A stretch of DNA of 64,000 nt from Muriicola marianensis. Its GTDB lineage: Bacteria > Bacteroidota > Bacteroidia > Flavobacteriales > Flavobacteriaceae. Both the position numbers and the translations under genes were made by a program. How positions within the stretch are numbered: position 1 is the first letter of the stretch; every line of letters starts with the position of its first letter. Shown here one piece after another: positions 17,835 to 19,098 of the stretch. The notes beneath the pieces are model-generated. The model searched no databases and had not been told where the DNA came from. It worked only from the letters and a program-made list of their open reading frames with translations. The stretch covers positions 434,001 through 498,000 of the forward strand of contig NZ_BMFH01000002.1 of NCBI RefSeq assembly GCF_014638095.1, in the 5' to 3' direction.

Positions 17835-17869
17835 TTGTTACCCTTTTCCGGGAAACTTTTCTATTTTTG
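17835..17869 (+). promoter_or_regulatory. Promoter reading towards the GIY-YIG gene, repeat array and tRNA-Pro
   Basis: TATTTTTG (17862-17869) is a full match to the -7 consensus TAnnTTTG, and a TTG lies at 17835-17837, 24 bp upstream. Transcription would begin just before the tRNA-Pro-like sequence at 17881. No comparable promoter is seen directly before the intact tRNA at 18686, so this one may drive the tRNA as well. Confidence 0.5.
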
Positions 17870-17880
17870 CGCACGCGTTT

Positions 17881-17946
17881 CGGGATGTGGTTTGTTCCTG
17901 AAGATCAGGACAGGCTGGTAGCGTATCCCGCAAGGCGGGATGGTGA
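17881..17946 (+). repeat. Repeat unit 0: tRNA-Pro 5' fragment fused to a tRNA-like repeat
   Basis: The first ten bases, CGGGATGTGG, equal the first ten of the intact tRNA-Pro. Then comes a hairpin with loop AGA (TCCTGA/TCAGGA), the tRNA-like core CTGGTAGCGTA and the ATCCCGC-AAG-GCGGGAT hairpin. It differs from the downstream units in the first hairpin but keeps the pairing. The ATG in its last bases is the first possible start of the GIY-YIG gene. Confidence 0.7.
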
Positions 17947-18194
17947 TGAAGATGGATGATGAATATAAGGTATACGTTCTTTACAGTGAGAAATTAGAGA
18001 AGTATTATGTCGGATTCACTTCTGATCTAACAGAAAGAATAGAAAGGCATAACACAGGTCGAAGCAGATTTACCTCGAGGGGAATCCCTTGGAAACTGAT
18101 CCGGGTTTTTGATTGCGCGTCGCGATTGGAAGCTATTCGTTTAGAAAAGTGTATAAAATCCAGGGGAATTAAAAGATATCTCGAGGAAAATTAG
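17940..18194 (+). CDS. Single-domain GIY-YIG endonuclease
   Basis: An 84-residue protein consisting almost wholly of one GIY-YIG domain: KVYVLYSEKLEKYYVG holds the two signature tripeptides (here VYV and YVG), LTERIERHN holds the conserved Arg, and EAIRLEKCIKSR the metal-binding Glu helix. Such stand-alone domains of 80-100 residues are frequent in Bacteroidota and their role is mostly unknown; related domains cleave branched or specific DNA. The first ATG lies inside repeat unit 0; starts at 17946 or 17952 (MDDEYKVYV) fit the domain better. The gene lies between unit 0 and the 97-bp array, as a transposase lies between its ends. Confidence 0.88.
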   Translation: MVMKMDDEYKVYVLYSEKLEKYYVGFTSDLTERIERHNTGRSRFTSRGIPWKLIRVFDCASRLEAIRLEKCIKSRGIKRYLEEN

Positions 18195-18205
18195 AGGTAT
18201 ATGTG

Positions 18206-18302
18206 GCTTGTTCTCTGCAGAGCAGGACAGGCTGGTAGCGTATCCCGCAAGGCGGGATGGTCGCTGGTTCGGTCCGAACTATTGTATTGAGAATAATATT
18301 GG
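18206..18302 (+). repeat. tRNA-like 97-bp repeat, unit 1
   Basis: First of five tandem units. The unit carries a hairpin with loop AGA, then CTGGTAGCGTA (identical to the D-arm region of the adjacent tRNA-Pro), the hairpin ATCCCGC-AAG-GCGGGAT in place of the anticodon arm, TGGTCGCTGGTTCG (identical to the variable and T-arm region of the tRNA) and the hairpin GTTCGG-T-CCGAAC. The tail is AT-rich. Confidence 0.85.
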
Positions 18303-18399
18303 GCTTGTTCTCTGCAGAGCAGGACAGGCTGGTAGCGTATCCCGCAAGGCGGGATGGTCGCTGGTTCGGTCCGAACTATTGTATTGAGAATAATATTGG
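18303..18399 (+). repeat. tRNA-like 97-bp repeat, unit 2
   Basis: Nearly identical to unit 1 including the AT-rich tail (TATTGAGAATAATATTGGG), so the pair is a recent tandem duplication. The shared core AGGACAGGC starts at 18321, exactly 97 bp after that of unit 1. Confidence 0.85.
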
Positions 18400-18496
18400 G
18401 CTTGTTCGCTGCAGAGCAGGACAGGCTGGTAGCGTATCCCGCAAGGCGGGATGGTCGCTGGTTCGATCGGAACTGTTGAAATGAGAATGAACTTAG
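18400..18496 (+). repeat. tRNA-like 97-bp repeat, unit 3
   Basis: Same core as unit 1 (core start 18418). It differs in the last hairpin, now GTTCGATCGGAAC, and has a different tail (TTGAAATGAGAATGAACTTAGG). The spacing remains exactly 97 bp. Confidence 0.85.
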
Positions 18497-18593
18497 GATT
18501 GTTCTCTGCAGAGCAGGACAGGCTGGTAGCGTATCCCGCAAGGCGGGATGGTCGCTGGTTCGATCGGAACTGTTGAAATGAGAATGAACTTAG
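18497..18593 (+). repeat. tRNA-like 97-bp repeat, unit 4
   Basis: Nearly identical to unit 3 including its tail, so units 3 and 4 are a second duplicated pair. The core starts at 18515. Confidence 0.85.
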
Positions 18594-18660
18594 GCTTGTT
18601 CGCTGCAGAGCAGGACAGGCTGGTAGCGTATCCCGCAAGGCGGGAAGGTCGCTTTGTCTA
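18594..18660 (+). repeat. tRNA-like repeat, unit 5 (truncated)
   Basis: The core starts at 18612, still in the 97-bp register. One base of the anticodon-arm-like hairpin differs (GCGGGAAGG) and the unit breaks off after GGTCGCT, so the T-arm-like part is missing. The intact tRNA-Pro starts 25 bp further on. Confidence 0.8.
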
Positions 18661-18685
18661 ATTGACATATTGAATTATAATTAAT

Positions 18686-18759
18686 CGGGATGTGGCGCAG
18701 TCTGGTAGCGTACGCGCATGGGGTGCGCGTGGTCGCTGGTTCGAATCCAGTCATCCCGA
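18686..18759 (+). tRNA. tRNA-Pro (anticodon GGG)
   Basis: The sequence folds as a cloverleaf: acceptor CGGGATG pairs with CATCCCG, D-stem GCGC/GCGT, anticodon stem CGCGC/GCGCG with loop ATGGGGT (anticodon GGG), T-stem CTGG/CCAG with loop TTCGAAT, and discriminator A. The CCA end is not encoded. The opening CGGGATGTGG and the T-arm match bacterial proline tRNAs. It lies directly after the tRNA-like repeat array and before a terminator. Confidence 0.95.
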
Positions 18760-18770
18760 CAGTAAAGTAG

Positions 18771-18798
18771 AACCATCGTCTTTAGGCGATGGTTTTTT
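18771..18798 (+). terminator. Rho-independent terminator after tRNA-Pro
   Basis: ACCATCG and CGATGGT form a stem around TCTTTAGG, followed directly by a run of six T. It closes the transcription unit 12 bp past the tRNA. Confidence 0.85.
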
Positions 18799-18849
18799 AT
18801 TTTCTATAACCGAGTGGAATATATTCAGATGAGGTTAAGAAAATAAAAA

Positions 18850-18932
18850 AACGAAATGAGCGCAGCGAACAGGTTCACTTTACTGTCTACACCCCCAACT
18901 CTGGATCACGCCGCAGGCGTAATCCAGAAAAG
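18850..18932. repeat. Degenerate palindromic repeat B, copy 1
   Basis: Shares with copy 2 the block ACGAAATGAGC...GCGAA.AGGTTCACTTTACTGTC, then ends with an arm pair CTGGATCACGCC-GCA-GGCGTAATCCAG (18901-18927, one mismatch). Read on the opposite strand, GACAGTAAAGTGAACC resembles the sequence directly 3' of the tRNA (GACAGTAAAGTAGAACC). No coding capacity is evident. Confidence 0.6.
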
Positions 18933-18971
18933 CACCAGAACTTATCTTTTCAATGACATTAGGATGAAATA

Positions 18972-19098
18972 AACGAAATGAGCTCGGCGAAAAGGTTCAC
19001 TTTACTGTCTTCACCCCTCCCGATAGCTATCGGGATCGGATCACGCCCGGAAAGTAGAGCACAGCTCACTTTCGGGGAGCGTAGTCCAGAAAAATCCA
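18972..19098. repeat. Degenerate palindromic repeat B, copy 2
   Basis: Second copy of repeat B. It contains a perfect 16-bp palindrome CCCGATAGCTATCGGG (19019-19034) and a longer imperfect hairpin running from GGATCACGC to GCGTAGTCC. It ends just before the stop of the DedA gene on the other strand and may act in transcript termination. Confidence 0.55.

Follow-up and report, generated by a model that had tools for sequence, protein, structure and literature searches.

The known system closest to the candidate free-standing homing endonuclease described here is SegB of the T-even phages, a free-standing GIY-YIG homing endonuclease that cuts within tRNA genes and drives the tandem amplification of the tRNA-segB unit, with microhomology between the 5′ region of the tRNA and the 3′ region of segB (PMC13096335). 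For SegB of phage T6, it has been demonstrated experimentally that tandem copies arise through cutting and off-register repair (PMC13096335). A different use of tRNA genes is made by integrative elements with tyrosine integrases, for which these genes serve as the site; a truncated tRNA copy is left behind and the function of the gene is restored (PMC9897764).

In the locus considered here, from Muriicola marianensis (Flavobacteriaceae), a small GIY-YIG gene stands beside a tRNA-Pro gene and partial copies of it. The window, that is, the whole stretch of DNA analysed, comprises 64,000 nucleotides (contig NZ_BMFH01000002.1, positions 434,001 to 498,000 of the forward strand). An initial annotation, made from the letters of the window, had singled out an array of tandem repeats next to the tRNA-Pro and likened it to tRNA-derived SINEs. 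The comparisons presented below point to another explanation, which we regard as probable: the locus would be a homing-type, target-restoring GIY-YIG element at tRNA-Pro(GGG), with a mechanism that we infer, and the array would be its ORF-less amplified remnant. Throughout the text, G000 is the genome of the window, G001-G008 are its congeners and L numbers are loci examined.

Organization of the Locus

Along the forward strand, the locus is composed of the following features:

17850-17880 (+): leader with the promoter-like stretch CTATTTTTGC, which also precedes the intact tRNA-Pro in G002 and G004
17881-17943 (+): psi0, the first pseudo-tRNA-Pro; fold z -3.35
17940-18194 (+): ORF of the GIY-YIG endonuclease, 84 aa when read from its first ATG; later ATGs at 17946 and 17952
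18206-18302 (+): array unit 1 and spacer, an ORF-less pseudo-tRNA-Pro; fold z -3.64
18303-18399 (+): array unit 2, same sequence as unit 1
18400-18496 (+): array unit 3; fold z -2.51
18497-18593 (+): array unit 4, which agrees with unit 3 at 95/97
18594-18685 (+): array unit 5, diverging past the palindrome and including the spacer into the tRNA; fold z -3.00 (18594-18680)
18686-18760 (+): intact tRNA-Pro (GGG), displaced downstream, some 800 bp from the old promoter
18901-18927 (+): T-arm copy, CTGGATC-palindrome-AATCCAG, with the T stem of the adjoining tRNA
19036-19088 (+): second and larger remnant, similar to a T arm and containing an inserted palindrome; its end, read by eye, is approximate

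Tandem Repeats Finder confirms the five-unit array of 97-bp repeats that had been placed at 18206-18660 (by its own limits 18205-18653, with period 97, 4.6 copies and 95% matches) and detects no other array in the window. Within it, CTGGTAGCGTA recurs every 97 bp, at 18232, 18329, 18426, 18523 and 18620, and the core starts proposed earlier are the same series, offset by 8 bases; the motif is found again in a sixth copy (17915) and in the tRNA-Pro itself (18702). The second block shared with the tRNA-Pro, TGGTCGCTGGTTCG, lies at 18258, 18355, 18452 and 18549, that is, in units 1-4. In other words, of the two tRNA blocks attributed to every unit, the first is present in five of five and the second is missing from unit 5. 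The near-identical pairs are as described, with 97 of 97 positions shared by units 1 and 2 and 95 of 97 by units 3 and 4, and the two pairs agree with each other at 87 of 97 (10 differences). A recent, stepwise duplication had been read from these pairs, and it fits the identical units 1 and 2, but not the two unit types: unit 1 resembles a unit of G006 (93%) more than it does unit 3 of its own array (87/97), which suggests that both types probably arose before the split between G000 and its sister species G006.

The sixth copy, psi0, had been overlooked. It lies directly 5′ of the GIY-YIG ORF, opens with the first 10 bases of tRNA-Pro and is made of the 5′ acceptor strand, a hairpin instead of the D arm and, for the anticodon arm, the palindrome ATCCCGC-AAG-GCGGGAT, without an anticodon. 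The stretch preceding it is a putative promoter, judging from the Bacteroidota consensus. The ORF matches PF01541 (E 2.9e-11) and, to judge from the comparison between G000 and G006 (dN/dS 0.136/1.66, about 0.08, with dS near saturation), the gene is under purifying selection; in NCBIfam, its product has no match above the cut-off. The tRNA gene reported at 18686 was confirmed as tRNA-Pro(ggg), 18686-18760, and in an Rfam scan of the window it alone passed the gathering scores, weaker matches near the locus being below the cut-off. No Rfam model of a group I intron or of another known RNA family matches the locus above cut-off, and the Rfam tRNA model gave none of the units even at E<=5.

On the 3′ side, T-arm copies bearing palindromes lie downstream of the intact gene, and therefore the window tRNA has remnants on both sides. 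The T stem of such 3′ copies follows that of the adjoining tRNA, being CTGG/CCAG beside Pro-GGG (G000, G006) and CAGG/CCTG beside Pro-TGG. The 3′ flanks of tRNA-Pro in the genus (18861-19092 in the window; L145, L144, L139) are organized as tandem units about 106-135 bp apart, which carry the palindrome-bearing T-arm copies and of which the marker GGTTCACTTTACTG is found at 18872 and 18994; G002 has four 3′-flank units, about 130 bp apart. In addition, the 3′ flank and terminator are common to tRNA-Pro(GGG) (18761-18912) and tRNA-Pro(TGG) (G000:C1:660318-660544, L145), a sharing that is absent in G001, G002 and G004 and that makes gene conversion between the two tRNA-Pro loci of G000 likely.

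Descent of the Repeats from tRNA-Pro

The earlier proposals that the units derive from the neighbouring tRNA-Pro and that a GIY-YIG gene is linked to the repeats are both supported, the former by virtue of the first copy of G006 and of the stepwise states in the congeners. Aligned to tRNA-Pro, units 1 and 3 score above all of 1000 shuffles (40 against a maximum of 27, and 42 against a maximum of 28, respectively). Once both shared blocks are masked, they do not exceed chance, as the score is reached by 768 of 1000 shuffles for unit 1 and by 314 of 1000 for unit 3, but psi0 (4/1000) and the first copy of G006 (0/1000) do. An alignment better than chance beyond the two blocks is thus found for these two copies and not for units 1 and 3. 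In the first copy of G006, 27 bases counted from tRNA base 1 are identical, 16 bases of tRNA-Pro are present beyond the two blocks, and ATCCCGC-AGG-GCGGGAT stands for the anticodon arm; since the masked window units are not above chance, this copy offers the best evidence that the copies would descend from tRNA-Pro.

The resemblance to a SINE goes as far as the tandem repeats being derived from a tRNA. A search of the window's own genome for dispersed copies of the array sequence returned two matches, both at this locus (the array and psi0). Among 60 genomes compared, the array is present only in G006, at the same locus, with one worn copy in G005 and matches of 25 and 23 bases in G051 and G058. 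A SINE-like dispersed family, as first proposed, is consequently extremely improbable.

Empty, Filled and ORF-less Sites within the Genus

The site exists in empty, filled and ORF-less form in close relatives. Specifically, in G002 and G004 the promoter-like stretch is followed at once by the intact tRNA-Pro (empty); G003 displays the order copy-ORF-copy-tRNA, and G006 and G000 the order copy-ORF-array-tRNA (filled); in G001 and G005, one copy precedes the tRNA (ORF-less). No match to the locus was found in G007 and G008, which are 68% and 74% complete. Such presence and absence at a fixed site in close kin is expected of a free-standing homing endonuclease element.

The flank upstream of the window locus aligns to that of G002 (70% over 274 columns), G004 (66% over 851), G005, G006 and G003, and more weakly to that of G001 (71% over 103 columns). 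In five of the six congeners it ends with TATTTTTGC and about 10-15 bases, after which the tRNA or the first pseudo-tRNA begins; in G006, about 115 extra bases lie between the TATTTTTGC region and the first pseudo-tRNA. The conserved flank, together with the states observed in the genus, indicates that the first copy sits at the old position of the tRNA and that the complete tRNA has been displaced downstream. The window allele of tRNA-Pro is also found in genomes free of the element, for example G117, G095 and G061, and a recoded rescue tRNA is, as far as tested, not supported.

The ORF of G003 is 74% identical to that of G034, which belongs to another genus, and 56% and 50% identical to those of its congeners, with 56% for G000, so that it is nearer to ORFs of other genera; an AU test on its placement gave p 0.023 against one clade, the group having been chosen after the tree was seen. 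The first pseudo-tRNA of G003 (L146) has a palindrome inside a palindrome, TCCCG[TCCCGATAGCTATCGGGA]TCGGGA.

Recurrence of the Arrangement and Match of Enzyme Lineages to Targets

Relatives of the window protein, counted at E<=1e-8, are encoded in 48 of 149 genomes of the family and 112 of 296 of the phylum. The loci examined were 78 (77 distinct places, mainly from the family search) and, in addition, the 29 best-scoring further loci of the phylum. A tRNA on the same strand lies within 250 bp of the ORF at 61 of the 78 and at 25 of the 29, respectively. Over 106 loci, the 51.5 kb lying 0-250 bp away from the ORF contain 93 tRNAs and the 56.7 kb at 1-1.5 kb contain none. Every one of the 109 tRNAs called by ARAGORN at the loci examined shares the strand of the ORF, two of these calls being spurious (SeC/Stop, on pseudo-tRNAs). 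As a small control, the loci of the three long GIY-YIG genes of the window's own genome have no tRNA. A score for flank repeats, calibrated on random pairs, exceeded the 99% limit of the null at 22 of 78 loci (null maximum 198); because conserved tRNA sequence inflates this null, few loci passed and analyses of tRNA position were used instead.

Usually, the ORF has the intact tRNA on one side and, on the other, a partial copy in which one arm contains a palindrome or is replaced by it. This layout is of two types: in type A the ORF follows a partial 5′ copy and precedes the intact tRNA, and in type B it follows the intact tRNA and precedes a partial 3′ copy. The tRNA is upstream of the ORF at 30 of 61 loci, and tandem ORFs are present at 21 of 78. 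G465, G357 and G132 have four or five near-identical tandem GIY-YIG ORFs beside a tRNA, with periods of 315, 322 and 349 bp. A scan of the whole collection for relatives returned two loci only, both from Patescibacteria; at L025 and L026, from Patescibacteria MAGs, the matched stretch has a same-strand tRNA at a distance of 46 or 13 bp and is accompanied by partial copies of tRNAs and by palindromes.

On a tree of 75 ORFs, built from few columns and with few strongly supported branches, the target label changes 21 times (minimum 15), where 500 shuffles averaged 52.4 changes and never fell below 47; the side of insertion changes 8 times, compared with 23.7 after shuffling. The enzyme lineages follow their targets, as is expected of homing endonucleases. 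The proteins have also kept, as such enzymes do, the GIY-YIG domain (PF01541) and its catalytic residues: Tyr15, Gly17, Arg25 and Glu61 (core numbering), the positions of which correspond to the GIY-YIG catalytic set, are invariant in 75 of 75 relatives.

A few loci have other targets. At L068, L094 and L074 (ORF broken) the ORF precedes an epimerase gene (Pfam Epimerase, E 2.3e-50 at L094), the 5′ end of which is duplicated across the ORF, and L051 is arranged alike, as judged by eye. At L088 the ORF interrupts a gene of the 23S_rRNA_IVP family, apparently, by eye, with no restoration. The ends of the ORF there, ACC(C/T)GTGAAAT...ATTTCACAGGT, form an inverted repeat, and an inverted repeat also bounds the ORFs before the sugar-nucleotide epimerase genes of L068, L074, L094 and L051.

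tRNA genes are prone to recombination. An account without mobility, according to which ordinary recombination duplicated parts of the tRNA and the GIY-YIG gene was caught and duplicated along with them, could build on this property and on the 3′ flank and terminator repeated within single loci (L033, L052, L054). It would nevertheless leave unexplained both the presence of one protein family at so many tRNA genes and the epimerase insertions, and the match of protein clades to targets disfavours it; we consider it quite unlikely.

Palindromes and Arm-Swapped Pseudo-tRNAs

A palindrome flanked by sequence of the parent tRNA, native terminators excluded, is found at 68 of the 88 loci with a nearby tRNA (71 of 88 with terminators included), and 17 of the 88, among them all four tRNA-His loci, have no tRNA-flanked palindrome. 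By strict rules, 48 of 88 loci provide 50 rows, in which the arm affected is the anticodon arm (27), the D arm (12) or the T arm (11). In 21 of the 27 anticodon rows, by our own count, the whole arm is gone, roughly from position 26-29 to position 42-46, and its place is taken by a palindrome, for instance TCCCGA..TCGGGA or TGGCGCC..GGCGCCA; in others, such as the copies of tRNA-Arg(tcg) and tRNA-Leu, the palindrome is inserted in a loop. Which arm is affected varies with target and type, as 43 of 50 rows show the commonest arm of their class (shuffled mean 34, maximum 42, 2000 shuffles). The swapped arm is internal to the copy; bases derived from the tRNA, in the median 13 for type A and 16 for type B, separate it from the side of the ORF.

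The stems of these palindromes vary between species and the pairing is kept. This observation, together with units that fold better than their shuffles (z -2.5 to -3.6), would be accounted for if the pseudo-tRNAs were functional RNAs, namely a leader, an operator or a tRNA mimic controlling the nuclease gene or the tRNA, with hairpins maintained by selection. Against this account, the copy lies 3′ of the ORF in about half of the loci and cannot be a leader there, so that a leader or operator role is unlikely; moreover, the anticodon hairpin of the ORF-less G005 has decayed, though that of the ORF-less G001 is intact, and the same palindromes are dispersed in the genomes, so that pairing need not mean selection on RNA. 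On the whole, we judge a regulatory RNA to be unlikely.

The dispersal of the palindromes raises a further alternative. REP/RAYT systems consist of short dispersed palindromes with a Y1 transposase, and by analogy the GIY-YIG protein could move GC-rich palindromes, for which tRNA arms would merely be frequent landing sites. The density of palindromes, which is 4.43 per kb in the first 100 bp around the ORF groups and 0.33 at 700-1100 bp, would agree with such a role. So would the occurrence of TCCCGA(N3-8)TCGGGA in 124 genomes out of 149, its scrambled version being found in 52, the nested palindrome of G003 and the same type of palindrome in a Patescibacteria locus. By our own tally, one palindrome pattern has 1022 matches in the 149 genomes versus 94 when scrambled. 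The genome-wide correlation of palindromes with nuclease matches (Spearman 0.45), on the other hand, is partly matched by the scrambled control (0.24) and is lost after subtracting two palindromes per match (p 0.16-0.22); the link is therefore not robust, and we regard palindrome mobilization as very unlikely. G119 has 92 copies of TCCCGA(N3-8)TCGGGA in 2.6 Mb and no GIY-YIG match in the family search.

A Probable Target-Restoring Homing Cycle

The explanation preferred here, a homing-type element that restores its target, would operate as follows. The nuclease would cut an unoccupied cognate tRNA gene, and repair would be templated by the element, with the tRNA sequence on either side of the ORF acting as homology arms. 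In this way the ORF would be copied in and a full tRNA retained, and the host would survive. A palindrome in one arm of the leftover copy would abolish the cut site there. If the intact tRNA continued to be cut and the breaks were mended off-register from the leftover copies, tandem copies would arise, and those devoid of the ORF would form the 97-bp array, the end stage of the cycle.

This explanation has on its side the empty, filled and ORF-less states within one genus, the conserved upstream flank, the proximity and strand of the tRNAs, the tRNA-flanked palindromes, the match of tree and targets, the tandem ORFs, the invariant core and the epimerase loci. Against it count an intact tRNA that is not recoded beside the element and whose allele also exists free of it, the 17 of 88 loci lacking a tRNA-flanked palindrome, the masked units scoring at chance level and the weak support of the tree.

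More generally, the GIY-YIG genes adjoining tRNAs look like an undescribed kind of selfish genetic element. We put forward tentatively, with the balance leaning slightly against it, the broader proposal that they are very old and widespread minimal selfish elements of Bacteroidota and at least two Patescibacteria genomes. Each would consist of one small GIY-YIG gene, with lineages that each specialize in one tRNA gene or, in a few cases, in a protein gene, would invade essential genes by cutting, would carry a complete copy of the target and would disarm the leftover by exchanging an arm for a palindrome. If confirmed, essential tRNA genes across a large bacterial phylum would be repeatedly invaded by one-gene elements that spare the tRNA, as a bacterial counterpart of target-restoring homing elements, and many unexplained small GIY-YIG genes and tRNA fragments would be accounted for. 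These enzymes, each with a known short target, would then be a ready set for studies of GIY-YIG specificity, and the testable question would arise of why palindromes replace whole tRNA arms.

Comparison with Known Systems

No account of this arrangement was found in searches of an open-access library, which is weak evidence of novelty. Among proteins of known structure, the best match to the window protein is the UPF0213 protein BH0048 (1zg2), E 1.1e-5, which relates it to the small GIY-YIG proteins of UPF0213; to our knowledge, a placement bracketed by tRNA sequence is not described for them.

As in integrative elements, a tRNA gene serves as the site, a partial copy is left and function is restored. 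Unlike in those elements, no integrase gene was noticed between the tRNA copies in the loci read, the gap being about 250-350 bp, and the truncated copy can be the 5′ part, with a swapped arm. The short dispersed palindromes near a nuclease gene recall REP/RAYT, membership of which is ruled out, as the gene is a GIY-YIG one and no Y1 transposase, and the genome-wide association of palindromes is unsupported. In cleave-and-rescue or homing gene drives, a nuclease is paired with a copy that maintains the function of the essential target. The locus shares with them the nuclease and the working copy of an essential target, but within the comparisons made the restored tRNA shows no recoding, and its allele also occurs free of the element; a natural cleave-and-rescue drive is accordingly not supported.

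In a collection of phages, two records matched the window protein (34.5%). With respect to SegB, the differences are that the putative element is hosted by bacterial chromosomes, that the protein has about 85-130 aa with one tRNA per protein clade, and that an intact tRNA on one side and an arm-swapped partial one on the other typically enclose the ORF. What the two have in common is a GIY-YIG enzyme encoded beside tRNA genes.
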